A stretch of 64,000 nucleotides of DNA from Antedon mediterranea (Eukaryota; Echinodermata; Crinoidea; Comatulida; Antedonidae). The position numbers were made by a program, and so were the translations under genes. The DNA lies in contig NC_092671.1 in the NCBI RefSeq assembly GCF_964355755.1, positions 37,093,304 through 37,157,303 on the forward strand, written 5' to 3'. Each line of letters begins with the position of its first letter. The first letter of the stretch is position 1. Below, piece by piece: positions 9,654 through 52,800 of the stretch. A model generated the notes under the pieces. That model was not told the DNA's origin, did no database searches, and saw nothing but the letters and a program-made list of their open reading frames with translations.

Positions 9654-9972
9654 AAAAACATTAGTCAGGACCAGACTCAAATTATATATACATATATATA
9701 TTTTTATTTAGCAACTACAGTAGAGTATGTATTGTTCTTACATACAACAAACAAACAGTATTCAAAATATTTTATTTATATCTATTTTACAATACATATA
9801 TGTATAGATATTAATATATAATTATTAATATATTAATATAAAGACATTTTTTAAAGAACTTTGCAAATTAAAGCAGTATCAGTATTTTATTATAGGCCTA
9901 TTTTAATCTTTTTAAATAGTAATTTATTAGCTATGTATAATTTTTGTAGTTAAAATTAAATTTGATTAGTTT

Positions 9973-10277
9973 ATGATAAACTCAATATTGTTAAAATCTA
10001 TAATTAAGAAAGGTTTTTATTAGTACATGCTAATTAAATATAATTATTTTATGATAAACTCAATATTGTTAAAATCTATAATTAAGAAATGTTTTTATTA
10101 GTACATGCTAATTAAATTTAATTATTTTATGATAAACTCAATATTGTTAAAATCTATAATTAAGAAATGTTTTTATTAGTACATGCTAATTAAATTTAAT
10201 TATTTTATGATAAACTCAATATTGTTAAAATCTATAATTAAGAAATGTTTTTATTAGTACATGCTAATTAAATTTAC
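9973..10277. repeat. 78-bp AT-rich tandem array, about 4 copies
   Basis: Units begin ATGATAAACTCAATATTG at 9973, 10051, 10129 and 10207, a period of exactly 78 bp with very few differences. The array lies between the converging 3' ends of the zinc-finger and polymerase-helicase genes. No other feature is seen in 9660-10490. Confidence 0.9.
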
Positions 10278-10501: not shown

Positions 10502-10685
10502 GATTTGTCTTTTAATTGATAATAATAAGCATTCATTAACTAGTATTTTACACCACCCAAACGATCACTTCTACAATGGTTGCGGTTACCACCCCAATTA
10601 TAGTACTGACTGCCACCACCATAATTGGAATGCGGCCACCTCTGCTGCCACCACCCTAATTGCGACCACCTCTGCTGCCACCACC

Positions 10686-10874
10686 CTAATTGCGACCACC
10701 TCTGCTGCCACCACCCTGACTGTAGCCACCACCCCGACTGCCACCACCCCAACTGCCACCACCCTGATTGCTACCACCTTGCCTGTAACCTCCCTGACTG
10801 CTACCACTCCGATTGCTATTACCCCTACTTCTACCACCCCGACTGCTACCACCTCGACCCCTTTTTCTCCTACC
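10686..10874 (-). other. RGG/Gly-Ser-rich C-terminal tail and its repeat-borne stop
   Basis: About 62 residues made of RGG, SRGG, NQGGG and YSQGG segments follow the helicase, typical of RNA-binding or condensate-forming tails. The stop TAG (10686-10688) lies inside a 30-bp repeat. Downstream the same unit recurs twice more in frame, one recurrence again ending in TAG, and then a Gly-rich reading continues in another frame. Confidence 0.8.
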
Positions 10875-13800
10875 ATGCTCAAAACTATCTCTTGTATCCC
10901 CCTGTTTCTCTGTCCTGATATTTTGTGATTCGCCAGCCTCTTCACCCCTTCCAGATTTGGTTGTAGACTCCATATCTGCTTCCGACACCATTGCATTCAT
11001 TTCTTTGACCCAATTAATCCAATGGCTCCACAGGGCACTACTCCTCAATGTACTTGCATTTCCAACTATGATTAAACCTCGTCGTGCCCGCGTTAACAAC
11101 ACATTAAAACGTCGTTCATCGTCCAGGAATCCTACAACATTACCAGGTAAATGGTTTTTTTGTGAGTATTACTTTGTTAAAACAATAAATTAATTTAATT
11201 TTTGTATAAAAGTGTTCAGTAATAATGATAAAATTATAACCATATATTCTTTTTTTTTATATTCATGCATCATAGTTTTCTTATATCCATTGTTGAATAG
11301 TTAAAATGTACTAACCAATAAATTGATCTTTATTCGACCGAACAGCAGAAAATATGATCACTTCTCTTTCCTGTCCTTGAAAACCATCCACAGTGCGGAC
11401 GTCAATTTTCTGTTTGAGTGTTTTCTTGATTAAATTAACCTACGTACCAGGTATGAAAACTTACATTAGATAGATCAAAGCAATCTATTGGATACATTTG
11501 TGTTCTGTTTATGTTTCAGGTCAAAGTTTACACAAGTCAAAGGTCAACTGGTTGAGAAATTTAAATTAATAGCATATACGCATGTTGTGTTCAATTCGAA
11601 TGCAAGTTATACTACATTATGTAAGTACAGCATATATTTTTCTATCACATTGTGATATGTATTATTTTGTACCTGAGCTGTATATGGTGATATGATCCCT
11701 ATTTCACTTTCCTTGATCTGTTTTGCGTTTAACAATCCAGCAACAAGTGTCTTGATGCGGTTGGCTTCATCAATATTAGACTTAGAAGAACCTGTCGTCA
11801 TTTCTTTACTCTACAATTGAAAGTAAAACATGCTAAAGTGTATAGAAGACTACACAAAAAGTAAGTATCGTATATATCCTCGAGTATAATCCCACTTCGG
11901 GTTCTAATCCCACCTTATACTTTATGTCTGATTTCACAAACAGGCATATCCCCAGGTAGAGTCGGTCCCAGTATTAACCTTTGATCTAGATGTAGGCCTC
12001 TCTCTAGCCAGTTTAGATGAGTTTTTACAAGAAATGGTAAACAATAATTTTTTTTTTCTGAACCAGGCTTTCCCTGGTACAGTCTCGCTGATCGGCCCAA
12101 TTTCGTGTTAAGTGGAATTATAGCAGAGGATATACGGTAGTACAAGAACATAAAGACGATGTATTTCATTTTTCAAGTTTTTTAGACATTTAGTAGACAT
12201 TGACAATCACAATACTACTTAAAAGCAAGTATGAACAGAGTATGATACAATGAAATCAAAATAGTTGTTCTTTGCTTTTGTTACAAGAGAGTTCTTTGTA
12301 CTAATAGCTTTTGAATTATATTACCTTAATATCTAAGAAGATTATAGGCTGGCCTTTTTCGTGATAAGGAAATCCAGACGGAAGAGGTCTTCTTTTTGCC
12401 TCTACTCCGTTCAGTAGTTTGCTATCATAAAATTTCAGAGATGGGAACTCTGCGAGCTTTGGATGCATTCTGTACTGGGTGTTCAGAAGATGTGTTGGGA
12501 AGCTCCTTCTTAACCTTTATGCAATAAATAAAATGTATTATTTTTTGTTCAAATCAATAAAAGAATTCTAAACTCTGTCTACACTATCAAATTTTATGTG
12601 ACAAAAATATATGATGTAGCCATATATGGACATGATGATGTCATATCACTACACATAATGGGCATACAGTATCACTATCATACAGTATTTGGGCACATCA
12701 CACTTTTTTGTCAAACTAGTTAAGTTTGATAGTGTAGACAGAGCTTAATCATTTTCTATGTCGTTTACATGATTAGAAGACATTAGAATTTCATATGAGA
12801 ACATTTCAAATATTTACCTTTCAAATATAGACATTTTGAGATTGTCTGCATTAGAGCTCTTCACCAGTGGAGGTAGTTGTTTGTCATCTCCAACAAGACA
12901 TAATCGTATGCAGCCATATTGCAGCGGCACTATGGCTGCTGGTTCTGTAGCTTGTGACGCCTCGTCCATCAGAACATGTGGGAAATGTTGGTCTGTCATA
13001 TAGCCTACACCCGCCCCAATACAGGTAGTGAAAACGATCTACGAAATTGAAACAGATATTTGATCTATTGAATGGTTAAATCAACTTATAAGCTAAAAGA
13101 TCCACAATGAATAGTTAGTATTTAAGCTCTGTCTACACTATCAAACTTGATGTGACAAAATAATGTGCCCATATATGGACATGATGATGTCATATCACTA
13201 CCATATTTAAACATATCACTACCATATTTGGGCACATACTTCTTGTTTTTTATCAAACTAGTTTGATAGTTGAGAGAGCTTTACAGTACCTTAGCCCGAT
13301 GTATAATATCTTTTGCAACAGCAAAGTCCATCTGCATAGCATGCATCTTGTGTCCTCCAGCCGAGTACTTTGCCTCAAGAGTTATGCGTTTCATATCGTC
13401 AGTCACTTTACTAACGTTTCCAATTCGAACCATATCATCTGGAGATATGAAACCAAGTGTTAACACTTTCATAATCAAGTTATTTACGCCCTCGTTTGTT
13501 TCCGCACATGCTAGAATCGGTTTAGAATCCCAGGTGTCCACCCATCTCTTGATAATCTCAGTGGCAGTAAATGTCTTTCCAGTTCCAGGTGGACCTTGGA
13601 TGATAGTTATCCCATCATTCATTGCAGCATCGACTGCTTCCATTTGGCTTTCATTCAGGACTCTTGCCTCACCCCTTTTTGCTGGTTTACGACGTGTAGA
13701 CGAGGCAGCTCCAGAAACAGCTGATTGTTCTAAAGTGTTAGAATTATCTGGAACTTCTCTTTCATGTTCTGGTTGTTTTGCATTGTCTGCATTTACGTCT

Positions 13801-16800
13801 GAATGATGAAATTCTGGTGAGATTTCTGATGCGATTGGACAGGTTTCCTTAACGGTATCACTTGAAAGAGCACATATATTTTTCAGAGCATCTATCATGC
13901 GTCTATATGAGACAAGGCTGGCAAATCTGTCAACACGCCAGTAGCTGTTGCGTGGGACATCTTGAGCGGTCAACTCATCTGGCGACGAGCCAACTTTACA
14001 GATGAGATTAACCTGAATCATAAGACCTTTAAAGAACAGAAAACATAATTATTAAATATAAACTCACTCAAAGGCATAAAAGAACTCTAAACCACCTGGT
14101 GATATAATGGAAATTAATTACTTTTTTAAATGTTAAGGTGAGGAAATCTGTGAGGATAAAAAAACGAATAAAAAAAAAAAAAAATTCTTTGAGAATGAGA
14201 AAAATCTGACCCAACCGAGAATTGAACCCAGAATGTTCTGCTTGCAGACTTCCTACTATTAGACCACTGGGACTTTCATATGCATACATTTGAGACAAAA
14301 ATCATTAATTTACTTATACAGCAACATGTACGTAGACCTACTAAAATACCAAAGTCACAAAATCATAATAGAAATACATGCAAGATATTATGTCACAGGA
14401 TACCTACCTGTTCTTTTTGATTGCACGCATTCAGCAAAGTATTTTGGTTGAAACAGCAGGTTTTCATCCATTTGATGAGATGGAGTAAGTGCCATGCCAT
14501 CTTGAGGCAAAAACGTCTGACGTGGAGCCTGAATGTTCAACCATCTTGCCAGCTTGCTTTCTGGGAAGGCATGTGCTTTTGAGAAATTGTCTGTGTTGAT
14601 GGCAGTCTTCTTAAACACCTTGGCTTCCTCTAAGACTTCTATTGTCAAAAGACTGGTCCATCTAAGAAAGTATGTCTTGGCACCTTCCGTTTTGAAATCA
14701 GTTGGATCCAACGGAAATAAACCTGAAAACAAATTTACTTTTATATCAAAAACTTTTTAAATTATTTTATCTATTTCTACAGTACAATATTTTAGTAACA
14801 AACTGCTGTTAATATTAATATTGGGCCAGATACAGTCAACTCCCCCAAAACCGGAAAATCTCCCAAAGGTCCCAAATTCCTTTTTACCATTAAAAACACG
14901 TTCTGAATACCAGACTTTCCAGAAAACCAGACATATTTGGCCAGCCTAAAGGTGTCGGCTTTTTGGGAGAGTTGACTGCATCGTGATAATTATCATTACA
15001 TTAGCTCTTTATACCTACCAATCTCAAATTGTTTGAGAAGATCCACAGAATGTGTTTCCACTGCATTCCCATAGATCAATAGCTTTAGGAAATTTACATA
15101 TGTGGCTACTCGAAAAAATGTACATTTTCTCTCCATGCTTTCCAAAAACCTGGAAATCATAATATTATTAAATAATAATATTTCAGGACTTGTATTTTTA
15201 AAATTGTAGGTGTTCTACAAATTGCCTACACTATCAAACTAGTTTGACAAAAAAGGTGTGAAGTGCTAAAATATGTAGTGATATGCCCAAATATGGTAGT
15301 GATATGACATCATTTTTTGTCACATAAAGTTTGATAGTGTAGGGTAGACAGAGCTTAATAAATGTGGTGTTTGTATCATAAAAAGTGTAAAAGTTTGCCA
15401 AATTTAAGTGTGATGTAATTTGCACCACCTTAAAGGTCAAATTGGCACATGACCTTTCTAGATTTTTTTAGTTTTAATGATTATAGGATATAGAGCAATC
15501 TCCATATACATCTGTACTTATTTCTCCATGGAATAAATATTGCCAACAAAGAATGTAAGAATGTGCACAGCAGTAACCTTGATGTCTTTGGTACAGCAAA
15601 ATTGCGTTCCATTGCAAGAAAGCAAAGTAACTTGTAATACGGGTCATCAGTGTAGTCATTGCTCAGTTTGGCATTTGTTTTCGAAAAAAGTATTTCTGTA
15701 TAACTTGCTATGTAAGCACCATTCTGAAAAGAACACAGTTCAGTAACAAATTAAACTAACTGTGCAGTTGTTGTATACATTTGTAGGTCTATAGGCGGAC
15801 CCCCCCCCCCCCCCCTCTCAAAAATGTCTGGATCCGACCCAGATAGCTAAACTTTGTCTCCCCCTCCCAATTTTCACAAACTCTCTGTAGTTTTTTAACA
15901 ACCCACCTCAGAGTCTCCCTCAGCCATTGCAAAAAATTCCTGTAGTTGAGAATCCAGTAAAGTTTCATTGTCTGCAAAAACCTTCAATTCATCAAACTTC
16001 TTATCAACCTCGTCAAACCAGGTCTTTTTGTGTTCAGTATGTTGTGAATGAGAAACCACTGGAAAATCATCTTCATTGTACTCAAATTCTGGAACTTCAG
16101 AATCATTTAGAACTGGTTCTACATCCGGAGGATCTGTATCTGCTATGTAATATGTCGGTAACATTCTAATGTCTGTATACCCTAAAAATAATTCACAAGA
16201 CATTACAGGTTCCCGTCTTAGATACGCATTACGATGTCTACTCTTAAACCCAGTGGAGAAATTCTGGAGGGCGACGCTCATTACTGTATGTCCATTTTCT
16301 TCCATGATGTTAATGAACGTGTTTCCTGTAGATTGATCAGCTGGATAGATTTGCAGCCTGCTACGGCGTACAAGCACTGCTTGGATAAATTGGCCTTTAT
16401 CAACTATGCAGTTCTCTGATTTGAAACCGTGGATGGAAACAAACGCCCTCAAACCAGGAGATGTCGTTGCATCATTAGACATTTGCGATAGTTCAAGTGC
16501 TCCGGGTATAAGAATAGTTATTATCCATATTCCACCGAGGTCAAACTTGCAGATCAGTAATTTTGGAAGATCTTCAGCAACTTTGCTTATTATTTCTTCC
16601 CAAGAAAATGATTCTTGAGTATGGTCCGCCATAGTGTACATCAAAGACCATTTAGTAGGGGATATTTCGGAGTCAAGAGTAGCAATATCTTCTTGAGACA
16701 ATATAGACGAGTGATTGAGGCCTGAATGTTTTGCTTTGATTACGTCTGTGCTATCTGGACAATCAACCATTGCAAGATCTCGCTGCAATCTGGTGAACGT

Positions 16801-19800
16801 TTTAAAGTCGATCAACTGACAAAACTCTGAAAGAAGATCCATTTTGTCATTCCTACAGCACCACTTAAACATCATTCGAAACAGTTTAAAATTGTCGGCC
16901 GGCCAGTTGTTGCTTCGTAATAAAGAAGAAATTGTTTTTTCGTCCTCGTTCATAAGATCATGTGACAGTATAGTAGATTTTTCACAAATTTCTAGATTGT
17001 ATCGTATCATCAGAAGCTGTATGATTCCACTTCGTTGTCGTTGCAGTATGTTGCTATCGCCCTCGTAACAATGTTCTGTTCTTACCTCATCACCTGCTTT
17101 GTAAACAAGTGAAGCGGCCTCTTTAAATGTTTTATATTCTTCTGAGTTCTCCCCATATTCTTCCATCATCTCCTTTTCAATTTTGGAGATACTGTCTTTC
17201 GTTTCACCACTCAGTAATTTCGCGTTACTCACCATTTTTTGACAAATAAATGCATTTTCTTTTGGACGGCCAACTTTTAACAAGCATTTTGGAATAGTAA
17301 CATTTTCACCAGTTTTTGCTGAATCAATTGCATGGTTGAATAGGTTAGCCAGGGCCATGCATTCTGGTGAATCAATTCCACCCATGTCTGCCCATTTTTC
17401 AAGTAGATTTGAGAATCTTGCCACCAGTCTGACATCATATCTAGCAAAGTAATCTATGAGATGTGTTGTGGTTATATTTGCTTGCGTTTTTGCCTTACAA
17501 CCTTAAAAGACAAACATTTAACAAAATCAGTAAACCGTTTCATTCATTATATTCACTAATAGATTCACTTCGTGACTTGTTATGCTATTGTTATTTTACT
17601 ATTTATACTGGGTAGCCTCTTTAGTCAAAGACTGGTCTCCTAGAGGGCGCAGTTATGATCAGTGGCTGTGTGTGTCTCTTTCGCGATGTACGAGGTAACC
17701 CCTATTCATCTCGAAAGATGTACTGTACTAGGTTCTTTTAAGTGCACAGGACCTATGTTTTATAGTCTTTATCCGAGAAGACATTTGTGAATGTCAAATG
17801 TGAATATCTATAGAAGTATGTTACCAGTACCTTGATATGATGTTGGTTGCCAGTGCGTTTTTGGAACCAGAGTTGGATCCCAACAAATCAAGTATTTATC
17901 TCCATCCAGGTCACTTCCAGCAATTTCATCGCAATGGGGTCGGCTGCCTATAACATAATTTGGATTCAAACTAATTAGAATTTGTGTGACATGCGGCCAT
18001 ATACTACTATACCATAATATAAAACATACTGTACTACTTATATGAGTAACCAGTAACAAAACATCACTCTTTTAAACGAAATATAATTACTTGGTAATGG
18101 TTCGTGTGCTTACCTTTCACTGGGAAGACTACACAGTCAACAAGATGTCTGATGTGTTTGTTATCCACACAATTAAGTATCCTAATATCGCCAGGATAAT
18201 AACTTGGGCTCTTTGCGACAAACACTCTACCCTTTATTACCTGTGATTTTCCACGTATAGTCGGTTGAAAAAACACTGTTCCTTCCTCAAGGGTCTCGGA
18301 GATGTCGCATACACCAAAGACGTTACGCGACATCTCTGCTCGAATATTGAGGCCTTCAGCTTTAGATTTCTTGATTCGTTCCAGCTTATCAGAAGCACCG
18401 ATTTTTCGGTCATCAAATACTTTTCTTCGAATGCTCTTCAAAACCTCTCTGATTTCTCTACTAGAGCAGTAATCACCTCCCTCTGTTGCTATCACCTTCT
18501 CTGCAAGGTCACTCCGCCCATTGATATACAGATGTTTTACTGCTATCCACTTGTCTTTTTCCAGATTTTGCAGTTCATCAAAGAATGTTGTCTGAAGCTT
18601 TAGGAACGCTTTATCAGGAATGCCCAAAGCTGAAAGAATTCTGATAAAATGCTTTATGAGGTTACCATACGCATATGGTTTGGCGATACCATCGTCGACC
18701 ACTCCAAGAATGTGTGGCTCAACCAGCTTCCATGAAAATTTCTCCTGTAAGACAAATACATACATCAATACAAGCAGAAAGTCAATTTTTCATGATTATG
18801 TAAACTATACTATACATTATTATACAAATAATGAATATTCATGAGTGGGTCATTAAATAGTATGTACTATTCCATGCCATAGCGTACATCAATACAAGTA
18901 GAGAGTCAATTTTTCATGATTATGTGCACTACACTATACGAGTGGATCGTTAAATAGTGTGTACTATTGCACACCATGTGACACACAATCAAATGACAGA
19001 AATTTATTTAGGTGTTTTATATAATATACAAATAATGAATTTTTATGAGTGGATCATTAAATAGTGTGTCTATTGCATGCCACCAAATCAAATGACATGA
19101 ATTTATTTGTTTCAAACCTATACTATTAGGCTGTATTATCACTGCTGTATAATGTATACTTACCAAAGAGTCCCTTAGCTTGATTCCTTTTTGGAGTTTT
19201 GGATCCACAACCAATACACCTTTACATCCTTTCAGTCTAATTTGGAAGACTGAGGGTACTGGTGGGTACTGGTTCTTGTATAGCTCTGTTAGACCCTTTG
19301 ACTCTGCAACCCTCATTGCGCATTCAATCGATATTGTTCCGCATCCATCCGTAAAGTTATACCCATCTCGTTCAATATCGCCTTCCTTTGAGATTTCAGC
19401 ATCTTTCAATCGGAGGACTTCGTTTGCGGTGGAAAGTAACAACCCAATGCGTGCAGCCCGCTTAGCAACATTATTGATGCTACTGAAGTCTCCAAACAGG
19501 TTGATGATATCATTGAGGTTCCCTAGCTTCTCGTTGTACATATAACACGTTCGATTCCTAAGTTGGGAAGAACTGTGTCCGAAAAACATGTACCGAGAAG
19601 GGCTGGTTTTTTTGTTGCGGTAACTTACAAGTAGTCCATTTGACAGACATTCAAATAGTTCTTGTCCCGGAAGATCAACATGAACATGAAGGACTAAGAA
19701 GTCACGATGGTTGAAGTTTGGATGTCTAAACAGGTTACACATCTTTAATTCACTTCCTTCTGGATGCGGATCAAGGACGAAATCTTCACAAGTCAGTTTT

Positions 19801-19958
19801 GGTCGTTTAGACGGTGGCGGTATTTGAATTTTTTGGGGTTTACGTAAAATATCTACAGATTTCATTCGCTTTTCTGATTCTGCTCGAAATTTTAAAGAGT
19901 CCGTTTTGATACGACTCATTTCAACAGCATTCTTTGAAATTTTGGCCACAGACGCCAT
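10686..19958 (-). CDS. RNA-dependent RNA polymerase fused to SF1 (UPF1/ZNFX1-like) helicase with RGG tail
   Basis: Coding exons on the minus strand: 19958-19164, 18744-18114, 17947-17831, 17501-15907, 15723-15578, 15149-15019, 14722-14408, 14026-13290, 13038-12818, 12514-12325, 11810-11673, 11439-11316 and 11131-10686. All junctions are GT-AG, phases agree throughout, and the sum is 5586 nt (1861 residues plus stop). Order: NLS-like PPSKRPKL (48-55), RDR-family polymerase (about 85-1000) with catalytic DLDGD at 488-492, a middle region without a recognised domain, SF1 helicase motifs (about 1365-1735) and a Gly/Arg/Ser tail from 1800. The protein should copy RNA into dsRNA for small-RNA pathways, with the helicase remodelling the template. 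The start is the first ATG after a 3' splice site at 19966, implying a non-coding 5' exon. One fused transcript is an inference; two genes would need a stop or start in the middle, and none is seen. Confidence 0.85.
11869..12140. mobile_element. short TIR element in RdRP-helicase intron
   Basis: Ends CGTATATATCCTCGAGTATA at the left and a matching imperfect inverse (AGCAGAGGATATACGG) at the right, with roughly 26-bp TIRs and no coding capacity. It lies in the intron between coding exons 10 and 11. Confidence 0.55.
12569..12747. mobile_element. MITE, AAGCTCTGTCTACAC family (copy 2)
   Basis: Both TIRs are present (AACTCTGTCTACACTATC / GATAGTGTAGACAGAGCTT). It lies in the intron between coding exons 9 and 10 of the RdRP-helicase gene. 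Confidence 0.75.
13122..13282. mobile_element. MITE, AAGCTCTGTCTACAC family (copy 3)
   Basis: Same family, in the intron between coding exons 8 and 9. Its right end stops 7 bp before the splice donor-side boundary of exon 8, so the element makes up nearly all of the 5' part of that intron. Confidence 0.75.
14195..14295 (-). mobile_element. tRNA-derived SINE in RdRP-helicase intron
   Basis: On the minus strand TGGTCTAATAGTAGG (A-box-like) is followed by GGTTCAATTCTCGG (B-box-like). A poly(T)/poly(A) stretch lies at one side. It sits in the intron between coding exons 7 and 8. Confidence 0.5.
14829..14983. mobile_element. pogo/Tigger-like MITE in RdRP-helicase intron
   Basis: About 150 bp with TIRs CAGTCAACTCCCCCAAAA and TTTTTGGGAGAGTTGACTG. 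The CAGT-type ends and small size fit a pogo-related non-autonomous element. It lies between coding exons 6 and 7. Confidence 0.65.
15222..15358. mobile_element. MITE, AAGCTCTGTCTACAC family (copy 4)
   Basis: Both TIRs are present, the left slightly degraded (TGCCTACACTATCAAACTAG). It lies in the intron between coding exons 5 and 6 of the RdRP-helicase gene, the third copy in that gene. Confidence 0.7.
17580..17795 (+). mobile_element. dispersed repeat (GAAAGATGTACTAGGTTCTT family), copy 1
   Basis: Contains CTGGGTAGCCTCTTTAGTCA, CATCTCGAAAGATGTACT, AGGTTCTTTTAAGTGCACA and ATCCGAGAAGAC. Related copies lie at 23655-23855 and, in reverse, at about 50430-50545. Shared length and both-strand occurrence point to a SINE-like element. 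Confidence 0.6.
18775..19115. repeat. diverged tandem repeat in first RdRP-helicase coding intron
   Basis: Three imperfect units of roughly 110-130 bp share ATGAGTGGATCATTAAATAG, ACTATTGCATGCCA and AATCAAATGACA. They fill most of the intron between coding exons 1 and 2. Confidence 0.6.
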
Positions 19959-28385: not shown

Positions 28386-30251
28386 TTAACTAGATTCTTC
28401 TGCTTTTATTAGTGTAAAAGGAGGGCCTAGATATTTTAAGCCTGCAACACATCCATGGAAACATAGTCCTTCTGGCATTGATGTCTCCCCTGACCACTTA
28501 TCAAGAACAGGGTCAAAAGATTCAACTTTTTTTACATGTTTCTGAAGCTCGCCGCCGGTCACAAAGATCTTTCTACCGACAACTGCTGCAGACGGACAAT
28601 TGCGTTTGTATCTCATTGGGTTAGCTGTACACATGGACATCATCTTGGGATCCAACACTGTCACCTCTTTCATTGTACAGTTACCCATAAGATACAGGTT
28701 CTCATTTAAAGAAACGGCAGGAAACATTGCTCTCGTCATACCAGATGTTAAGATCACATTGCATTCTAAAGTGTCCAGATCAAAAACTTGAACGGAACAG
28801 ACTCGAGTGAAACACAAAGGGCCTATGATGTATAGCTTATTACGCATGGCCGCTAGACTTGCGTTACTGTTTGTTGGATTAATATGTCCGATGATCGACC
28901 AAGATTTGACCTCTGGGTCATACACCTCGATACTCGTTAATGTGTTGTTGTCATCTTCACCGGCTACTACGTAAATCTTCCTGTTGAAACTCGTAGAAGC
29001 ATGATTGCACCTTGCCCTTTGTAAGCCTGTGACTTGTTGCCATTCGTTTTTCACTAAAGAGTATTTCCAAACATGGTCGCACACATGTTCCTCGTGGAAA
29101 CCACCGATTACATAAATATCTTGATTGACGGAAGTGACGCTGTAATCTGTGTGCGAGAACGGAAGTTGCGTAAGGTTGTACCAACAGGCTTCATGGTAAA
29201 ATATAACATCTTTTTTCCATTTTCTGTCAGAGGTCATACCGCCAACAACTATAAGTATATTGTGAAGCATTGATGGTCTTGGATATCTGACCAGCTTCCC
29301 CTTAACTATCATCTCCTGAAGATTTAAAGCCTCCTTCACCATATCTTTACATTCCTTAACAGCTATAAAAGCAAAATTGGATTTCAGAATATCGTTTATA
29401 ATTGACTTGTCAACGAATTCTAGCCTCACACATTCTAAGACGGATTTAAAACATTTGGCTCTCTGCGGTTCAAAGTTGACCCATTTTATACATGCCTTTA
29501 AAACGGAGTCTTCTTTACTAACGTACAGTCTTTTATCGGATACTAACTGGACTAGCTTGTCTTCGCTTATGGAAAGAAACTCTTTTGTTAGTGAAATTTC
29601 GTTGAATTTGACCAAGATATAATCCCAGGCTTCCGACATCAGGTTCTGTTGGCTGTATGAATCTGCAATTTGATGGATTCTGAGACAGTTGGACGGTTGT
29701 AGATGCGTCATCAGAAAAGATTCACATTCTGCAACGAGCCTAGGGTACTGTAGAAAACAAGCAGTCGCTAATAAGTCACCTGCCGTCGACAATTTGATCT
29801 CAATTTGTCCTAGGTACAAGTAGTCGATGATTTTCCCCAGCATGTCTGCTTTAACATCATGGAGATCAATAACGCTTTGAGAACTTTCTCGTAAATCGTC
29901 GAGGAACATAGCTTGAAAGAACGGACTGCTTGCAGCTAGGATGCTTTTGTGGCAGTGGATCATCAGGTCTCCAGATTGCAATACAACATCTGTCAATTTT
30001 CCAAGTTTTCTTTGCTCCTGTAAGACCAGCAAAAGGTCTGTGGCAAGGGGTTTGTTTGTGAAAGTAATAGTAGCGCCATGGTCCATGTAATGGTCTTCTA
30101 GCGTATTGCCACATTGTATGCCTTTTTCTTCTTCATACACTACGGTATCTTTGTGTGTTATTGCTTTGTACTCTATAGTTGTTCCATGAAACCCCTCCTC
30201 CTCCACTATGAGAGCAATGTCACTGCATTCTATTTCTAAAGCTGCTGCCAT
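28386..30251 (-). CDS. kelch-like protein (BTB-BACK-kelch)
   Basis: A single uninterrupted frame of 621 residues, terminated by TAG at 28386. After an acidic N-terminal extension of about 75 residues comes a BTB domain (about 77-185; KLTDVVLQSGDLMIHCHKSI, LAASSPFFQAMF), a BACK domain (about 190-300) and kelch repeats (about 335-610; IVVGGM, IYVIGGF, IYVVAGE, IFVTGGE). Proteins of this layout act as substrate adaptors for cullin-3 ubiquitin ligases: the BTB/BACK part binds CUL3 and the kelch propeller binds the substrate. A 3' splice site just upstream of the ATG (TTTATTTTTTAG) suggests a non-coding 5' exon. I cannot say which KLHL orthologue it is. Confidence 0.9.
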   Translation of the reverse strand: MAAALEIECSDIALIVEEEGFHGTTIEYKAITHKDTVVYEEEKGIQCGNTLEDHYMDHGATITFTNKPLATDLLLVLQEQRKLGKLTDVVLQSGDLMIHCHKSILAASSPFFQAMFLDDLRESSQSVIDLHDVKADMLGKIIDYLYLGQIEIKLSTAGDLLATACFLQYPRLVAECESFLMTHLQPSNCLRIHQIADSYSQQNLMSEAWDYILVKFNEISLTKEFLSISEDKLVQLVSDKRLYVSKEDSVLKACIKWVNFEPQRAKCFKSVLECVRLEFVDKSIINDILKSNFAFIAVKECKDMVKEALNLQEMIVKGKLVRYPRPSMLHNILIVVGGMTSDRKWKKDVIFYHEACWYNLTQLPFSHTDYSVTSVNQDIYVIGGFHEEHVCDHVWKYSLVKNEWQQVTGLQRARCNHASTSFNRKIYVVAGEDDNNTLTSIEVYDPEVKSWSIIGHINPTNSNASLAAMRNKLYIIGPLCFTRVCSVQVFDLDTLECNVILTSGMTRAMFPAVSLNENLYLMGNCTMKEVTVLDPKMMSMCTANPMRYKRNCPSAAVVGRKIFVTGGELQKHVKKVESFDPVLDKWSGETSMPEGLCFHGCVAGLKYLGPPFTLIKAEESS

Positions 30252-31434
30252 TGTCTCTTAACAATTTCCTAAAAAATAAAATTAAAACAACATTTTATCC
30301 ATATTGCTTTATTTCATCAGCAGATCCAGTGGGTAGTGCAAGCTCCCCTTTTGACAGCCTTTTTAATATATATTTAATACATCTATCTATATATCTGAAT
30401 AGCATTTCTTTAATCTTACTGACGACATGCATTTTGGTTTACCAACCCTGACTGAATGATCACATATACAAAATAATATATCATAAATAAACACAATTAC
30501 ATTTAGCAAAAGTTAATAAACAGGAAACCAATACAGTACAGGCAAAAACCATAAGGACAATACTCCACCTGTCTGATCTACTCTAGTTGTATGCGATTAC
30601 CCCATTTAAATAGTTACCGGCGGCGGGGTACACCCATTCTGCAGACTACATTATTATGTGCACATCACATCCAGGGGTCAGTTGTCAGCACATCATTTGC
30701 AGCAGCAGTGATAATGGGTTGACCTAAACAGCGTTATGGTTTCATATATAACGATGTACATATTTCATTTTTAGCCTAAGGTCCTTTATAAACAACGTTT
30801 ACGTGGGTACGTGCACTGTACCTCAGTTGTCATACCTACCTTGTTTAGTAAAGATCAATTTTGTTAGGAAAATTAACAGGGCTGCTTCTTGTCTCCAGGC
30901 CATTTGTTTATGTTAAATTGCGCCCTCAAACGATACAGACAGAAAGACGATGTTCAATACATTTATTATCAGAACCGCGTTCTGTGACGTACTACTTCAA
31001 TTATACGGTAGTCATATTAAATAGGCCTTATACGTTATAGGATTCAATATGTCGACAATCGCTCTACAAACTGCAACCAAACTGAAGCTTGTAAATAAAT
31101 GAAAGTTATTTTTATTTTGACATATTTTATTTAATAAAAAAAACACGAAATATTAAGTACACGATTCGGCATCACCATTTTTTAGGGTCATATGCTGCAT
31201 ACCGTACAATTGTTTTAAAATGTTCAAATTCAAATAGAACATAGACAGCTAGTTGGCCTTCCTTCTATATGAATTGTAAGACAAAACAATATGCATATTA
31301 TATAAATGAAAACTAAAACTTGAACACAAACGCAACACTAAAGGATTGCGCTTTTTTGCAGCTACGCACATCCTTATAAAAATGCTCTTATGAATGCAAG
31401 TTATGTTTATTCCTTTGAGTGGTAATTATAATGT
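30252..31434. other. intergenic between KLHL and fucosyltransferase genes
   Basis: Nothing coding is seen. The less AT-rich stretch at about 30600-30960 probably includes the KLHL promoter, since that gene seems to need a 5' non-coding exon. 30960-31434 is AT-rich without recognised repeats. Confidence 0.4.
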
Positions 31435-34975: not shown

Positions 34976-37900
34976 ATAACAATAGAACTTGTTGAAATGC
35001 CCAAAGTCAGGTTTCTCAATAGATTCCCTTTTATAGGCGCGGCCTGCAACGCTGCAGTATCCTAGACACTAACACAATGTAAGTATTCTGTTTTCTTCAT
35101 TAATTTTACGTTAATACACAGACCTCCTATTCATAAAAAGTTATTATTCGCACTGTCTTAGGCCTAGTGATGACGTACGGTAGTGTGCATAGGCTATTTG
35201 CACGTTGGTTTTATATCTAATTAGGCTACAACTCCCTGTATTTTATAGGAAGAGCACAATACACGTGTAAATGATCATGGACCAATAGAGATCCGATGGT
35301 CTGTGTTAACTCTGTAGGCCTACTTATATTAGTGTTTTCTAGGCCCAGGGTGTAGATATACCGTACACAGCGCCAGTGTAATTTTTAAAACCACGTGCTA
35401 TAGGGAATATGGTAATCTGTACAGGTGCTACACTTACACCACCACCTGTATAGAATCGTCGACAGCTCAGTGAAAATCAGAAGACCACATATTTCATGAT
35501 GACGGTATATTTAATTAGTGCATGATTTTGTATACATTTTATTTTATTTTTTTCAGACATTTATCAACGCTTAAGGTTCAACGCATCAAGAAAAATGTTT
35601 GTAAGTACCGTAGACTTTTTTATACGTTGTATTGACCTAGGCTCATTAATTATAATACTAATCTGTACCCTCTCATCTCATGAGATGTAACTACACATGA
35701 AGAACTAGTGTTGCTCAAAAGCTCTGCTAATTTTTCTGGCTGTTTTACTTCATCGTTTTGATTTAGCTTTTTGCTTATTTTATTTTGTATCTTCATTGAG
35801 ATCCAGCCACTGATACCCACAGCATTGTCATTAAAAAAAAGTAATTTGCCTTGGGATTTATATATTCGTTCATTCATTCAATATTGTTTAATCTCGAATA
35901 TACAATTATTTTAATTTTATTATGTGGCCAGTGTGCTTCGTTTGTGGTTTTTTTTATGTGAATTTGAGCTTTGTCCTGTTTTTATTGTTATTTTTTAGTC
36001 ACTTTTATCATGTAAAAATCTATCGCAATTCAGTTTTACTATGAATTTGATCTTGATAAATATACCATATGAATCAAATATGTTTTTAACAATTTTAACG
36101 GTTTTATTTCTCAGAACAAACGTTATTTAACCACGAAAAAGATCTGGATCAGTTTCTTAAGTTTCATTGCAGTAGTCGGTACTGTAAAGTTATTTCATGT
36201 TATCAAAATGGATTTTCCCGAAAAGAGTGACGTCATGGACCTAGTACGTGGCGCTAGTAAACATTTGATTGCTAAAAATAAAGTCGTGAAAGCGAATCTT
36301 CTTCCCAGTAATACGAGTCCGAAAGAGATATTAATATTCGGGGACATTAGTGTCATCGAAAGTTGGTTTGAATTGAGTGTAATGGTCAAATGTTTTAGAG
36401 GCTCAAATGGTGTTAAACAATGTCCAGTATTTTGTCCGAAATATAATTCTTCAATTAATCTATCTTTGGGAAGTAAAACTTCCGATTATAAAAACAAAAA
36501 CGCAATCGTTTTCGGACTTTCGCCGTTCACTCTTCTTCGCAACCACGGTGAAGTTACTAACATTAAGAATCCGAAATTTCCGCCAAATGTTTTGACTGTT
36601 TTTTACAGCATGGAGTGTCCATACAGAATCCATAAATGGATCTGGCGTATTCCGGATGGGAAGTACCACGTGACGATGACCTACCTCACAGGATCCAATA
36701 TAACAGTGCCCTATGCGTATTATAAACCATTTGAAAAGGAAAAAGTTCCTAATAAACGAAATTTCGCTGATGGAAAAACTAAACTCATAGCGTGGATGGG
36801 TAGCAACTGCGTGAAGGAAGTATTCTGGCCTAGGATGGAGTTTATTCACCGTTTGCAGTCGCATGTTCCCGTTGATACGTACGGCAAATGTGGCAACTTA
36901 ACCTGCCTACCAAGACTCTCCAAAAAATGTGTTAACATGCTGCAACAATATAAATTCTATTTAGCGTTTGAGAATTCCGAGTGTCATGAATATTTGACGG
37001 AAAAGTTCTGGGCTAGTTCACTTCAAAACGACGTAGTTCCAATCGTTTACGGAGCTAGTAGAGAAGATTTTAAGAAATTTGCACCCGAAAATTCGTACAT
37101 ACACGTCGGTGATTTCAAAAACGTAAAAGAATTAGCAAGTTATATAAAATTACTCGATGAAAACGATCATCTTTATAATAAGTATTTTGATTGGAAGACT
37201 AAAGGCACTGTTGTCAATGTGTATCCTCAAATGGAACCGTCCTATTTCTGTGAGGTTATACCATTTTTAGATAGAAATTTAGAACGTAAACCGCTTAAAG
37301 ATTCCATATGGTATAACTCGTGTCGATCGAAAATCAAACACAAATTTGACCCTAAAAATATCGGCAGCTTTGATAACTGGTCAAGCTGGTAAGTTTGAAA
37401 GAAGAAATATGAAAATAATATGAATTATATAGTTAATATAAAAATAAATATTGATAGTGTTTATGTACTCATGATTGTATTTCTGTTTTAGTGCTGTTAG
37501 TGTAGGTCTTCCTTTATATATTAAACATACAGAGCTACAATTCTCTCTCCTGAGGACGATCAAAGCATATTGAGCGAAACGTTGAGAAACTCAACAGTTG
37601 TTTTTGCTGTGGAAAGCCCGATAATAAATATAACACGTTTTTTATGAGGTACTGATCATTTTTGTGGTCCTTTTTGGAGTTCAATGTGTTGGGAAGAAGG
37701 AAGCAATGTTAAGTATCCCTATTGTATCTAGTCTCAAATTTGGTTTGATTGCTAAGGTTGCATCACATTGACTTGCAGGCTTCGTTATTCTCCATGTCAC
37801 ATGGTAATGTCTGTACCCAAATACATTTTGTCATGTAATTTACACTGTTACTTGTTATCATTGCAAATCTAAAAACTTATATAAAGTTTTTTATCTTTAC

Positions 37901-43428: not shown

Positions 43429-45408
43429 ATGTTTGTAAGTACCGTAGACTTTTTGTGTACGTTGTATTGACTCATTGGATCATTAATTATAATAATAATA
43501 TATTTTACCATCTTATCTTCTTGAGATGTAAGTATACTAAATGAATGGCTTGTGTTGCCCGAAAGCTTTGCTAATTTTTCTGGCTGTTTTACTTTATCGT
43601 TTTGATTTAGCTTTTTGTTTATTTTATTTTGTATCTCCATTGATATCCAGCCACTGATACCCACAGCATTGTCATTTTTTCAGTGCTTATTTTATTTTAT
43701 ATCTCTATTGATATCCAGCCACTGATACCCACAGCATTGTCATTTTTTCAGTGCTTATTTTATTTTGTATCTCCATTGATATCCAGCCACTGATACCCAC
43801 AGCATTGTTATTTTTTTCAGTAAATTTCCTTTGGATTTATATATTAATTCATTCATTCAATTGTTTATTCTCGAATGTACAATTATTTTAATTTTATTCT
43901 ACTATTCTGTATATTGAGATTTAAATCCATTCCCTTTTGTATGTCACCAGCCAGTGCGATTTTATTTTGTTTGTGTTTTTTTAATGTGAATTTGGGCTTT
44001 GTCCTGTTTTTATTGTCACTTTTATCATGTAAAAATCTCTCGCAATTCAGTTTTACTATGAATTTGATCTTGATAAATATACCATATGAATCAAATATGT
44101 TTTAAACAATTGTAACGTTTTATTTCTCACAGAACAAACGTTATTTAACGACGAAAAAGATCTTGATCAGTTTCTTGAGGTTCATTGCAGTAGTCGGTAC
44201 TGTAAAGTTATTTCATGTTATCAAAATGGATTTTCCCGAAAAGAGTGACGTCCTGGACTCAGTACGTGGCGCTAGTAAACATTTTATTGCTAAAAATAAA
44301 GTCGTGAAAGCGAATCTTCTTTCCAACAATACGAGTCCGAAAGAGATATTAATATTCGGGGACATTAGTGACATCGAACGTTGGTATGAATTAAGTGTAA
44401 TGGTCAAATGTTTTAGAGGCCCAAATGGTGTTAAACAATGTCCAGTATTTTGTCCGAAATATAATTCTTCAATTAATCTATCCGTGGGAAGTAAAACTTC
44501 AGATTATAAAAACAAAGACGCAATCGTTTTCGGACTTTCGCCGTTCACTCTTCTTCGCAACCACAATGAAGTTACTAACATTAATAATCCGAAATTCCCG
44601 CCAAATGTTTTGACTGTTTTTTACAGTATGGAGTGTCCATACGTAATCCATAAATCGAATTGGCGTATTCCGGCTGGGAAGTACCACGTGACGATGACGT
44701 ACCTCACAGGATCCAATATAACAGTGCCCTATGCGTACTATAAACCATTTGAAAAGGAAAAAGTTCCTATTAAACGAAACTTCGCTGAGGGAAAAACTAA
44801 ACTTATAGCGTGGATGGGTAGCAACTGCGTGAAGAAAGTATTCTGGCCTAGGATGGAGTTTATTCACCGTTTGCAGTCGCATTCCCGTTGATACGTACGG
44901 CAAATGTGGCAACTTAACCTGCCTACCAAGACTTTCCAAGAAATGTGTTAACATGCTGCAACAATATAAATTCTATTTAGCGTTTGAGAATTCCGAATGT
45001 CATGAGTATTTGACGGAAAAGTTCTGGGCTAGTTCCCTTCAAAACGACGTAGTTCCAATAGTTTACGGAGCCAGTAGAGAAGATTTTAAGAAATTTGCGC
45101 CCGAAAATTCGTACATACACGTCGGTGATTTCAAAAACGTAAAAGAATTAGCAAGTTATATAAAATTACTCGATGAAAACGATCATCTTTATAATAAGTA
45201 TTTTGAGTGGAAGACTAAAGGCACTGTTGTCAATGTGTATCCTCAAATGGAACCGTCCTATTTCTGTGAGGTTATACCATTTTTAGATAGAAATTTTGAA
45301 CGTAAACCGCTTAAAGATTCCATATGGTTTAACTCGTGTAGATCGAAAATCAAACACAAATTTGACCCTAAAAATATCGCCAGCTTTGATAACTGGTCAA
45401 GCTGGTAA
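43429..45408 (+). pseudogene. GT10 fucosyltransferase duplicate broken by a 2-bp deletion
   Basis: Exon 1 43429-43434 and exon 2 44133-45408 correspond exactly to the intact copy at 35595-37392. The body is nearly identical, but GT is missing at about 44882-44883 (CGCATTCCC here, CGCATGTTCCC in the intact copy). The frame therefore shifts and stops at TGA about 44889-44891, before the GT10 motif. The rest is still open in the shifted frame, including FENSECHEYLTEKFW from 44987, so the lesion is recent or is an assembly error. A product from the first part would keep the membrane anchor but lack the catalytic core. Confidence 0.85.
43590..43825. repeat. 67-bp local tandem repeat, about 3 copies
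   Basis: Units TTTTATTTTGTATCTCCATT ... CCACTGATACCCACAGCATT repeat three times, each ending in an acceptor-like TCATTTTTTCAG. The equivalent place in the left unit (35770-35830) has one copy. It lies in the intron of the broken fucosyltransferase. Homologous single-copy sequence also occurs at 20400-20525 in reverse. Confidence 0.75.
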
Positions 45409-46891: not shown

Positions 46892-49800
46892 TCAGTTCTT
46901 AGATTTGGTGATATCGCAAACACAGAACTCCATCTCAACTAAATTGTCCGAGCAAGGTTGAAATTTATTGTATGTACTTTTCTGATGAAGCTGTAAACAA
47001 ATATTAAACAATTGTACACATTTAGTACAGTACGTACAGTATTATTCTTTCTACAAAACCACTGGTTAATTGACTAGGTTAGTGATAGTTAACCTGTTCA
47101 TCAACAGGTTAAAATGGTAGACTATTTACTTATAAATTTCTCACTTGTTATCAACAATTGCTAACCATACTTGCTTAGGTGGATAATTGACTAGGTTAGT
47201 GATAGTTAACCAACTGTTTAATTAGTCACCAGACTACTTTATGAATTCCTCACTTGTTATCAACAATTGCTAACCATTGCTTGTTTAGGTGGGATAATTG
47301 ACTAGGTTAATGATAGTTAAACAGGTTATAGTAGACTACTTTATGAATTGTCCAGTTGTTATCAACAGCTGCTAACCCATATTGCTTGACTTGTTTGTTG
47401 GGTTTATTAACTAGGTTAGTGATAGTTAACCAACTGTTTAACAGACTACTTACCTTATGAATTGTCCACTTGTTATCAACAACTGCTAACCATACCGTTT
47501 TAAACTGTTTAGCTTGGAACAGTAACTGGTAGTATATTGCAGTACTTCCATCAGCACCCACTTCTTCCCGTACTTGTATATTTAGTATCTTGTCAAGGGA
47601 AATATTCATACAACTTGTGTCATGTAAGGGATTCCAATCTTTTCTCTTACCAACTTTATAAAGGGTTTTCTGTAAAACAAGAAATATGCAACAGGTGGAG
47701 TAATATTTTTTTGTTTAGGGGTGTGGTAACATTTAGTGAGGTATATTGATTGAAAATATATTTAATCCATCCTGATGATTTATATACAGTATAGTTAAAA
47801 TGATTTACATATTGATTATTGTAAAACTGAACCATGCTTTGAAACTGAAAAACGAAGTGAGGTAAAGTTGATTTTATAAATATATTTAATCCATCCTGAT
47901 GATTTATATATAGTATGATTAAAATAATTTATTGATTATTGTAAAATTGAACCATGCTTTGAAACTGAAAACAGATATATTGATCATAAACATCTTTGTT
48001 TATGCATTTCTAACAAAATCAAAATGATCTACAATGTCTCAGCGGTTTGACGAAGAGATACAAACTGTTACGTGCATATAAGAGTTTAAAATTTGAATAT
48101 TGTTATTATAATTTTTACCTTAGAATGTTTATTATTGATGAATTTGATAACAAAGTTGACTGTTTCATAATGAAGTATTCCCCATTCACTTTTGGCAAGC
48201 TCCTAACAAAATTAAGAACATTTTGTTAATTGTATTCATTTTACGAAACAAACAAGGTGATTCAAGTGGTAAAATTGACAATAATTGATCACGGCCTTGT
48301 AGAAGAACACCTTTATGGTGAAACAAGCTTTTCCGTGTTAAAATAAAGTATTTATTATTATTATTAATATATTACTACTCTTTAAAAGATGCACTGGATT
48401 CTTTTAAGTTTACACAAGTCAGATGGGTTCCACCGATTCTACAACTATATTGTTGAGGAGAGCCTTGAACCAGTGTGCCGATTTTATAGCTGTGATTGGC
48501 TGCTTCTTGCCCTGGACGCGATTTTTTTTTGTACATAAGTTGGAAACCCCATGTAAAAGATAGCCAGACAACTTCCTAAATATAACTAAACCCAACCCTC
48601 TAAATAATCTCTCTCTCTCACTATAAAGTAAAAGAAGTAGCTCATTGGAGTCGAACCCTATACATTGACATGTAAAGTCCATAGCCTTATCCACTCGACT
48701 ACACAGACGGCTCGACAGAAATCGTTTGCACTAGCGAATTGTAGTTAGCTCAATTCTTACGTCACACCTTATGGATATGACTAATAAATATTCATGTTTA
48801 TTTTGTGACGTTTCACGCACCCTGGACACTCTACTAGACAGTCTATTTATTTGTAGAGATATGGTATATTCAAAGATTTCAATAATTATTATATACCCTG
48901 ATTGAATATTAACTACCCACTCATTACAAAATTGAGATAAAAAAACATCCAGCACCTTAATTTTGCCACATGCACAGCTCCATGCTGATATCCCTGCTTC
49001 CTTGCAACTTCTTTTTCTGCAAAGAAACGACCAAATCTCACTCTTTATATTTTTACCTTGTTGTTTAAATGAAATAAAATGAATAAATGGATGAAAAAAA
49101 CTATTATATCCGTCGTATCTCCTTTCAGTTCCAGAAGCTTTGGTCGTTACCTTATTTTTTGGAGAAAGAAGATAACTTGTACAGTTTTTCAAAAGAACTG
49201 ACAATATTAAGAGGACCCTATTTAGTATTAGGATCTGTGTAAAATAAAACCTTGCTATATTGTAATAATAACTGATTCAATTTTTTTGTGTGTGTTTTAC
49301 TATTAATTTTGAGATATTTTAAACCGATTTATCTTGTTTGTGTAATTGAAAAACTCCTACTGGAGTATCACTCAACATGTAGATAGAGGTTGAGGAGGGA
49401 GTATCACTCAACATGTAGATAGAGGTTGAGGAGGGAGTATCACTCAACATGTAGATAGAGGTGGAGGAGGGAGTATCACTCAACATGTAGATAGAGGTTG
49501 AGGAGGGAGTATCACTCAACATGTAGATAGAGGTTGAGGAGGGAGTATCACTCAACATGTAGATAGAGGTTGAGGAGGGAGTATCACTCAACATGTAGAT
49601 AGAGGTTGAGGAGGGAGTATCACTCAACATGTAGATAGAGGTTGAGGAGGGAGTATCACTCAACATGTAGATAGAGGTTGAGGAGGGAGTATCACTCAAC
49701 ATGTAGATAGAGGTTGAGGAGGGAGTATCACTCAACATGTAGATAGAGGTTGAGGAGGGAGTATCACTCAACATGTAGATAGAGGTTGAGGAGGGAGTAT

Positions 49801-52800
49801 CACTCAACATGTAGATAGAGGTTGAGGAGGGAGTATCACTCAACATGTAGATAGAGGTTGAGGAGGGAGTATCACTCAACATGTAGATAGAGGTTGAGGA
49901 GGGAGTATCACTCAACATGTAGATAGAGGTTGAGGAGGGAGTATCACTCAACATGTAGATAGAGGTTGAGGAGGGAGTATCACTCAACATGTAGATAGAG
50001 GTTGAAGAGGGAGTATCACTCAACATGTAGATAGAGGTTGAGGAGGGAGTATCACTCAACATGTAGATAGAGGTTGAGGAGGGTAGAGAGCTAGTCAAAA
50101 TGAGAAATCAGCTTGGAGAAGGTTTAATAATAATTTAATAGCCAACAACGTACTGTACCTGCTAATTTCTTGTGTAAACACATTAATAACATTATCACCC
50201 ACAACTCCAGAAACCTGCTCCATATTCGGAAAATGCATCAAAGATTTCATACTTAGATGTAGATCCATATGAGTCTAATAAAACAAAATTAAAAATTCCA
50301 TTTACAGTATTGATAAACATACATTCATTAAGTAGAGTCGTTGAGCAGTTAAGGCATTGCCGCTGCAAACCATAGCTATCAATCGGCATAGGTTGAAGTC
50401 ACTCCTCGACCATTGATCTGGTGGTAGAACAGGTCTTCTCAGTTAAGGACTTAAAACTGGAGGTCCAGTGTACACATCTGGCTCGTGTGCACTTTAAAGA
50501 ACCGAGTGTATCTTTTGAAGGGTAGGGGGTTACCCCGGTATACAGGTCCATTCAGCCCTTGTCGTTGTGGACAGACGAATGGGTGTCATTTGGTGGCAGC
50601 ACTTGACATGAAGGGACCCTTGGTGGAGAAGAAAGTTGTGGTATGTGTCATCCACGACTATGCAACCTACTACAATTCAGTCCAGTAGAGTGCATAGTCG
50701 TAGTCCCCCAACGTGTTTCTCATTGTTTTTACGTGGGATAACATTCTTACTAAGTATCGTTGCTGGTTCACAAGTAGATTATAGTGAACATCTGGTTTCA
50801 TTTCCAGTAACCATGACGGCATTATGATTGACAGGAATGGTAAAAGTGACTCATACTTTCCCCCAAGATGAGTGATGTCAGAATATGGCTTACCGTGATC
50901 ACCGAGTAACAACTGTAAATTAAAACATACATGGTTGATGAATAAATATTTTTATTTCATTATTTATTTTCATACTTATTAATATAGTGTACAACAAATT
51001 TCTTTAAGCTATGTTTACAATATCAAACTAGTTTGACAAAAAAAGTGTGATGTGCCCATATATGGTAGTGATATGCCCATATATGGTAGTGATATGACAT
51101 CATCATATCCATGTGTGGGCACATCACATTTTTTTGTCACATAAAGTTTGATAGTGTAGACCTCTATTAAAAGGCTACTCCTTCAGGACCGTATCCCAAA
51201 AGAGGGATTTTAATGTCTTTTATATCAATTATTAAAATGTTTACCACAACTAAATTAGCATTATCATTTAGAACATTCTCAAGAAATCTTCTTAAATCTT
51301 CATCCACTTGATTAATTGATTCTGCTTTACGGCTGAAATAATAATAAAATTAATTTTAATTTTGTAATTATTGTTTTTGCACTTTTATACTCGATATCAC
51401 AAGCTGTAGTGAGCCACACCAGATGCAAACTACTGTATTTTGCTAGTGTTCTTGAATGAGACACTGTACTATGTGTGATGGGGTAGCCTCCGGCATCAAA
51501 ATGGATTCAAAATGTCCTCCATTAACCTCAAGACTTAATCTGCATAGCTTAGACTTAAAATAATGGCAGGGGAGATCTTAGAGTATTACCTATGATGAGC
51601 ATTGATACCAATTGCTGCCCACTTGGCCGAGTGAGGTTGTTTAAGAAATCCCTGAGTATAGTTTAAGATGTACTCGTGGAGAAAATGATTCCCTTCACAA
51701 AAACCAGACAGGACACCCGGAGATACCTACCAAGATAAAATATATAATATGATATGATAGAATGCAACAAAGAATTAAGCACAACATGGGAGCGCTACAA
51801 GATTGTAATATGAATTTAGATGGCTGAATAATAATAAATAATAATATGGATTTATACACATACCACTCAAGATTGCTCAAAGCGCGTTAAAATCAACAAA
51901 TGTATGTACATTTATTTTTATAAATAAATATATAATATATAACAATAATAATACAGTAATGTAAGTTTTGTTTACACATTGCTTTCATGATTCTTCATTT
52001 TAAAATAACAGATAAAGTTTTTATACCAGTAGGAAATAAATAAAATCAGATTTAAGTATTTATAAAGCCTTATGTGACAAAAAAATGTGATGTGCCCATA
52101 TATGGACAAGATGATGTCAAATCACTACTATATTTGGGAATATCACTACCATATTTGGGTATATCACTACCATATTTGGGTATATCACTATGTGTGTGCA
52201 TTCTATATTTTAATTGTTTGCTTTATATTGTGAACATATATCTGGTTTTTTTTTATCATACTAATATTTATTTACCAATCTTTAAGAAGAATTTCTATTA
52301 ATTTTTATATAATAAGGGACAAACAAAGCTTTTCAGTATTTTTTTCAGTACACAGAGCTTTATACACTATTTCAACTACATCAACAAAATGTCAATATTT
52401 AATATATAATTATTCCAATGTTGATATTCAATCTTGTTTTTAAATAATCATATGAAAATAAAGGCAATAATACCTGCTCGTTTTCCCTAGCCATCCAACC
52501 ATGCTCCTCATGTGCCATTGCAGGGGGTCTGTAGTGACAGCCCTGTAATAAAAACATTGTATAACATCAGTGTGACATATAACAACACCAGCAAGACCAA
52601 TCAGAATAGGCCACCCAGTGCATTCTAAATTAATAAATAATATCCCGTTTGTCACAGAAGCAACATAGGCCTAGGTAACTTAAATGTAAAGATATAATTA
52701 TTGTCCCCCTAAAAAAATTATTTTTTAAAATTTTTTAAATAGTTATTCACTTTTACCAAAAACTGGATCGAAAAATAAAATTATTTTCCTGAAAAAAACA

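Follow-up and report, generated by a model that had tools for sequence, protein, structure and literature searches.

A predicted fusion of an RNA-dependent RNA polymerase, a TLDc-like domain and a UPF1-like helicase in the crinoid Antedon mediterranea

We analyzed a stretch of 64,000 nucleotides (nt) from the genome of the crinoid Antedon mediterranea (contig NC_092671.1, positions 37,093,304 to 37,157,303), referred to as the window and used for all coordinates below. Its minus strand carries a gene (10686..19958) predicted to join a cellular RNA-dependent RNA polymerase (RdRP), a superfamily 1 (SF1) helicase and an RGG tail in one chain of 1,861 amino acids (aa). The coding sequence of 5,586 nt is distributed over 13 exons: exons 1-5 at 19958-19164, 18744-18114, 17947-17831, 17501-15907 and 15723-15578, exons 6-9 at 15149-15019, 14722-14408, 14026-13290 and 13038-12818, and exons 10-13 at 12514-12325, 11810-11673, 11439-11316 and 11131-10686, all on the minus strand, as are the features described below. 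A preliminary description of this DNA, made from the letters alone, had read thirteen GT-AG exons with matching phases and no internal stop, and rebuilding the gene from the window gave the same result: the exon sizes (795+631+117+1595+146+131+315+737+221+190+138+124+446) sum to 5,586 nt, every intron border is GT-AG, the phases match and the 1,861 aa contain no stop. The ATG is located at 19958 and the stop codon at 10688-10686. Upstream of this ATG the reading frame remains open as far as 20051, so the 5′ end of the gene is putative.

A public A. mediterranea protein (P0001, 1,563 aa) shows 100% identity with the gene model from the shared start codon up to the end of exon 9; it was quite possibly predicted from the same assembly and is therefore not independent DNA. 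Exons 9-13 are supported by the protein P0003 of the crinoid Anneissia, with 69% identity. If a junction is counted as fitted when a homologue has at most two gap columns within six residues of it, nine of nine homologues fit at nine of the twelve exon junctions, and six, seven and seven of nine fit at junctions 4/5, 5/6 and 6/7, respectively. Because of the identity with P0001, the polymerase profile score of that protein and the match of the helicase to UPF1 (both given below), the coding gene model is far beyond chance. Introns 9, 8 and 5 contain related inverted-repeat stretches (12569-12759, 13123-13270 and 15216-15342) resembling short mobile elements.

The RdRP region comprises about aa 82-605 in exons 1-4 (17230..19715). 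Within it, the Pfam family PF05183 matches aa 122-589 on the identical P0001 with 344.4 bits (curated cut-off 23.8; E 1.8e-102), and the catalytic motif DLDGD can be read in the translation at aa 488-492 in exon 3 (17898..17912). The pattern D.DGD is kept in all 121 fused sequences described below. Judged from its sequence, with a match above the Pfam cut-off and the catalytic DxDGD in the second barrel, the window protein is a cellular RdRP. A six-frame search of the 354-Mb, 18-contig genome with PF05183 returned four matches, all on exons 1-4 of the fused gene, which is the only RdRP found in A. mediterranea by this search. The same genome contains 21 Piwi-domain exon matches (Argonaute/Piwi) in five clusters.

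The region behind the RdRP, about aa 777-956 in exon 4 (16177..16716), is a TLDc domain by fold, as predicted by an AlphaFold model of a homologue. Pfam TLD stays below its curated cut-off of 24.5, with two of nine pieces reaching 13.9 and 15.7 bits, and a further TLD scan matched two of ten pieces (best E 0.0059). Overall, the predicted folds of homologues resemble RDR2, TLDc and UPF1. The TLDc domain is preceded by a segment at about aa 702-770 (16735..16941), which is helical in the predicted model of the homologue P0142 and which we tentatively call BACK-like; a Pfam BACK match below the cut-off (E 0.043) was found in P0011 alone among six homologues scanned. The RdRP, the helicase and the RGG tail of the preliminary description all stand. 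It had overlooked the TLDc-like domain, the wide occurrence of the fusion and the fact that all RdRP matches of the genome fall on this one gene.

A region of helical repeats, stalk and 1B β-barrel follows at about aa 1010-1290, from the end of exon 4 to exon 8 (13887..16017), delimited by a purpose-built hidden Markov model and by the predicted model of the homologue P0152, which aligns with UPF1 from residue 111. The helicase core itself (aa 1362-1765, exons 8-13; 10977..13673) was identified by a profile match, the match to UPF1 and the homologue model. It contains motif I (Walker A) GPPGTGKT at aa 1388-1395 (13572..13595), followed by DEASQ at aa 1514, GDDKQLPP at 1539, QYRMHP at 1576, DGFQGQE at 1690 and LTRARRG at 1726. 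These motifs and the DLDGD motif lie in the same rebuilt chain, as had been claimed. Compared with the UPF1 structure 2xzo, the window helicase gives an E value of 2.5e-64, and with the SF1 motifs, the stalk and the 1B barrel it is a UPF1/SMUBP2-like SF1 helicase. The SMUBP2 (IGHMBP2) family TIGR00376 is the best match, yet lies below its cut-off of 348.9 in all three fused members scored (123, 289 and 289 bits). The N-terminal CH zinc domain of UPF1, which we take to be PF09416, was absent from the Pfam matches obtained with five members at E values up to 0.1 (the best 25 of 34 for one of them). ZNFX1 carries NF-X1 zinc fingers; the NF-X1 family was likewise not among these matches, in a scan that covered the window gene up to exon 9. 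PF13087 was detected in four of the five members, and the fifth, P0001, ends before that region.

The RGG/Gly-Ser-rich C-terminal tail was read in the translation at about aa 1801-1861 (10689..10871). Among the 110 fused sequences with a helicase match extending to the end of the profile, 43 have at least three RG dipeptides in the tail, compared with 1 of 95 control stretches. Because the tail is encoded by a 30-nt tandem repeat (10631-10778) that includes the TAG stop and continues downstream, the exact end of the protein may vary with repeat copy number. Directly 3′ of the gene, four 78-nt tandem repeats are found at 9954-10276.

The preliminary description had called for a search for the same architecture in other genomes. 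An initial search yielded 42 proteins. A subsequent search with a profile yielded 645, the best 120 of which were used; the sample amounts to 151 proteins plus the window protein. All 152 sequences were scanned with four profiles (RdRP, middle, stalk and helicase) built from ten fused sequences. The profile for the search was built on fused proteins and favours fused matches, so the counts are no census: 105 sequences carry all four parts, 16 RdRP, middle and helicase, 14 only the RdRP, 11 only the helicase and 6 RdRP and middle. The fusion is thus widespread: RdRP and helicase occur together in 121 of the 152 (the window protein and P0001, the same gene, both being counted), always with the middle region and in the order RdRP, middle, helicase. 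Fused proteins come, among others, from crinoids (Antedon, Anneissia), three species of amphioxus, corals (Dendronephthya, Stylophora), sponges (Dysidea, Ephydatia, Oopsacas), molluscs (Mya, Mercenaria, Patella), rotifers (Brachionus, Adineta), mycorrhizal fungi (Diversispora, Funneliformis, Racocetra) and mushrooms (Auriscalpium, Coprinopsis). Two of them, P0140 and P0150, are named in the manner of de novo transcript assemblies and labelled complete, and each contains both halves in one open reading frame (ORF). Since the combination recurs from sponges and corals to molluscs, rotifers and lancelets, and in fungi as well, it is not a one-off accident of the Antedon genome.

To these sequences we added the best 120 helicases from a search with the window helicase, which drew on 7,999 candidates sharing most words, among shorter proteins. 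In the resulting 272 sequences, the middle region occurs in none of the 131 helicase-only and in six of the 20 RdRP-only proteins, and those six end within about 140 residues of it. Many of the 120 helicases are close copies from marine archaea, and the best stand-alone matches include proteins of Poseidoniales, Thermoplasmatota and Thalassarchaeum (P0162, P0182, P0226, P0229) with ~40% identity. An N-terminal P-loop kinase-like domain was recognized in 73 of the 121 fused proteins by a profile built from ten of them (PF13521 in P0014), and a Walker A pattern precedes the RdRP in 57 of the 121. Carriers of this domain include P0014, P0047, P0113, P0126, P0128, P0138 and P0150; it is not present in the crinoid, amphioxus and coral members.

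RdRP and helicase trees were compared for 75 fused proteins, taken from the 114 well-covered ones of the 121 after removal of close copies and limitation of the list. The two agree (Mantel r 0.935; none of 5,000 permutations was as high, the best reaching 0.39), and 47 of 72 bipartitions are common to both, as one old fusion would lead us to expect. In the RdRP tree under the better model, 21 fused proteins separate from seven unfused RdRPs with a branch support of 100/100, the outgroup being unfused RdRPs of fungi and not of animals or plants. These sequences are most simply read as the outcome of a single old fusion, though this is not proven, and spread of the fusion by horizontal transfer may also have contributed.

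Our best explanation of the whole, which we consider probable, is that the gene encodes one RNA-bound copying machine, with RdRP, (BACK-like) segment, TLDc, helical stalk, UPF1-like helicase and RGG tail arranged in this order in one polypeptide, and that it belongs to an old family that animals and fungi appear to have inherited as a unit. The RGG tail and the helicase would hold and remodel an RNA, and the RdRP would copy it into complementary RNA. The helicase would strip duplex or bound protein, allowing copying to proceed or the product to leave. UPF1-type helicases travel 5′ to 3′. Because the new strand is extended in the same direction, and because on the template the helicase would oppose the polymerase, it would be expected to move along either the new strand or the displaced non-template strand rather than to pull the template. 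The TLDc domain would act as a docking or control module. The most likely use of such a machine would be to supply RNA silencing, or the defence against foreign RNA, with antisense or double-stranded RNA; in animals this predicted role is putative.

Several observations weigh against this account. In the helicase tree, 20 fused helicases and three fragments separate from 11 stand-alone ones with a branch support of only 64/39. The Patella protein does not have the standard helicase motif II, which is altered in some other members as well, and in the two mushroom proteins (Auriscalpium, Coprinopsis) Walker A is absent and the middle region is matched weakly, at 17-27 bits. Moreover, the annotation P0001 terminates at the exon-9 donor, where AG|GTAA reads as an R codon (12817..12819) followed by TAA inside intron 9, and does not contain exons 10-13; the Anneissia protein P0157, which comprises one half of the helicase and a portion of the stalk, has the same last residues (SIFER). 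The locus could accordingly yield mainly a shorter product of RdRP, TLDc and first RecA half, in which the crinoid helicase would be an RNA-binding module and no motor. We regard this as unlikely: exons 10-13 retain the later helicase motifs, all nine homologues fit junctions 9/10 to 12/13, and Anneissia P0003 spans them, too. Since every phase-2 intron with AG|GTAA reads R-stop, the shared ends of P0001 and P0157 can be a habit of gene callers.

Anneissia also provides separate models for the two halves, the RdRP-only P0002 and the helicase-only P0157, each on a contig of 143,542 bases, and a second such pair (P0141 and P0155) lies on contigs of 239,420 bases. Furthermore, P0003, a paralogue, joins exon 4 straight to exon 9 and consequently has no Walker A. 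These models would suit two neighbouring genes, an RdRP and a helicase, misread as one through a chance match of splice sites. Such a misreading is highly improbable in view of the annotation of P0001 as a single chain over exons 1-9, the conservation of middle and stalk segments within the chain in animals and fungi, and proteins with both halves on contigs that barely exceed the ORF (1.04, 1.05 and 1.06 times its length for P0006, P0068 and P0101). P0002 of Anneissia japonica contains two tandem RdRP-middle units, the second without the RdRP start. Of the observations that, according to the preliminary description, would speak against a fusion, one is present in another crinoid: P0157 of Anneissia is a separate helicase model, although its neighbour P0002 and the paralogue P0003 suggest split or partial models. 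P0002 and P0157 may be parts of a single gene split in annotation, or two genes in their own right. For the window itself, a natural fusion that unites an RdRP, a UPF1-like helicase and an RGG tail is supported by the gene model, the motifs, the profiles and the homologue model.

The copying machine could also work outside RNA interference (RNAi), sensing or remodelling RNA that is foreign or faulty in antiviral defence or quality control, where copying would mark an RNA as double-stranded. The helicase is UPF1-like and the TLDc protein NCOA7 is antiviral, both of which count for such a role. In amphioxus, which has a family member, a published study reports no population resembling small interfering RNAs (siRNAs), a further point against a silencing function, and describes animal RdRPs as lost many times and retained in a scattered pattern (PMC6396948). 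In addition, in half of the B. belcheri individuals studied one of six RdRP genes is reported to be dispensable, the pangenome concerned being rich in defence genes (PMC12373286), and ZNFX1 homologues of mice and humans are described as acting in immunity against RNA viruses (PMC9276528). Conversely, deletion of Fgrdrp5, an RdRP-helicase gene of the fungus Fusarium graminearum, is reported to decrease antisense exonic small RNA from 27.3% to 18.91% and 5′-U reads of 21-25 nt by about 32% (about 70% and 80% for two other RdRPs of this fungus), and the exonic siRNAs concerned are Dicer-dependent (PMC11237814). Argonaute/Piwi genes are present in the A. mediterranea genome, which also argues against a role outside RNAi, and we consider such a role possible but doubtful. 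Fgrdrp5 itself may be only architecturally alike, as it was compared by its drawn domains. With the Fgrdrp5 phenotype on one side and the absent siRNA signature of amphioxus on the other, the family may, by analogy, work in RNA silencing in fungi and have a different role in some animals. As a tentative extension, the RdRP-TLDc-UPF1-like chain could predate the split of animals and fungi and survive patchily, and it could copy faulty RNA, or RNA of foreign origin, in defence or quality control rather than in classical secondary-siRNA amplification; TLDc would fix the site of action, and in the version of sponges, bivalves and bdelloids the P-loop kinase-like domain at the front provides a third enzyme-like part. 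Animal RdRPs are an open puzzle. If the enzyme kept by crinoids and amphioxus, by corals and sponges, and by molluscs and rotifers is this multi-domain machine, the question shifts from the missing RNAi to the role of an RdRP combined with a UPF1-like motor and TLDc.

Elsewhere in the window, two very similar ORF regions (36073-37392 and 44106-45408, the second in two overlapping frames) appear fucosyltransferase-like by eye. An open frame of 623 aa at 28386-30257 appears BTB-BACK-Kelch-like by eye, and a minisatellite-like open frame at 49319-50107 consists of repeated STSIYMLSDTPS units.

To our knowledge, plant RDR2 and Neurospora QDE-1 contain neither a helicase nor TLDc, and we know of no RdRP or helicase among the TLDc proteins NCOA7, OXR1/2, TBC1D24 and mEAK7. 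By their titles, several structures of these TLDc proteins were solved bound to V-ATPase. Ahead of the RdRP core, the window protein has 81 residues and its nearest named relatives 70-150, compared with about 325-520 in 14 RdRP-only sequences of fungal type. The cooperation of RdRPs with separate SF1 helicases, as stated in the preliminary description, is supported by analogy: ZNFX-1 of C. elegans immunoprecipitates with EGO-1, and Hrr1 of S. pombe functions with an RdRP (PMC9276528). In the window protein the helicase is fused in the same chain and NF-X1 was not matched in the members scanned, which excludes it from the ZNFX1/Hrr1 class. RdRPs of Dictyostelium, oomycetes, Hydra and Nematostella likewise combine a helicase and an RdRP in one chain, with an N-terminal DEAD-box helicase of superfamily 2 (SF2) (PMC4791657); the window helicase is SF1 and C-terminal, which rules out this class, too.

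The closest described counterpart is Fgrdrp5, in which the RdRP is followed by DEXDc (1277-1478) and PF13087/AAA_12 (1475-1677) in one chain and which forms its own branch in the published RdRP tree (PMC11237814). The same order, RdRP first and PF13087 last, was found here, with the helicase profile match at aa 1362-1765. Unlike in our description, the helicase of Fgrdrp5 is referred to as DEAD-like, and the main text does not use SF1, TLD or RGG (PMC11237814). A candidate of Branchiostoma lanceolatum, BL02069, also combines RdRP and AAA_12, in a study whose main text does not contain the words helicase, UPF1, SF1 or TLD and which found no RNAi role in amphioxus (PMC6396948); BL02069 is presumably our fused protein P0043 from the same species. 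With these two proteins in print, the preliminary description, which knew of no described RdRP-UPF1-like fusion, is not supported on this point. Bdelloid rotifers are reported to have an expanded set of divergent RdRPs, in an account that, in the part drawn on here, does not use the word helicase (PMC7943196). SF1 and TLD do not occur in the main texts of PMC11237814, PMC6396948, PMC4791657 and PMC7943196, and a literature search on RdRP-helicase proteins, with most subscription journals out of reach and TLDc not among its terms, brought up no recognized account of the family as a whole. RdRP-helicase fusions are thus an already known kind, represented by the SF2 versions and Fgrdrp5, to which the protein of A. 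mediterranea and its relatives add two features that seem to be unreported, namely the TLDc domain and the wide taxonomic range of the family.

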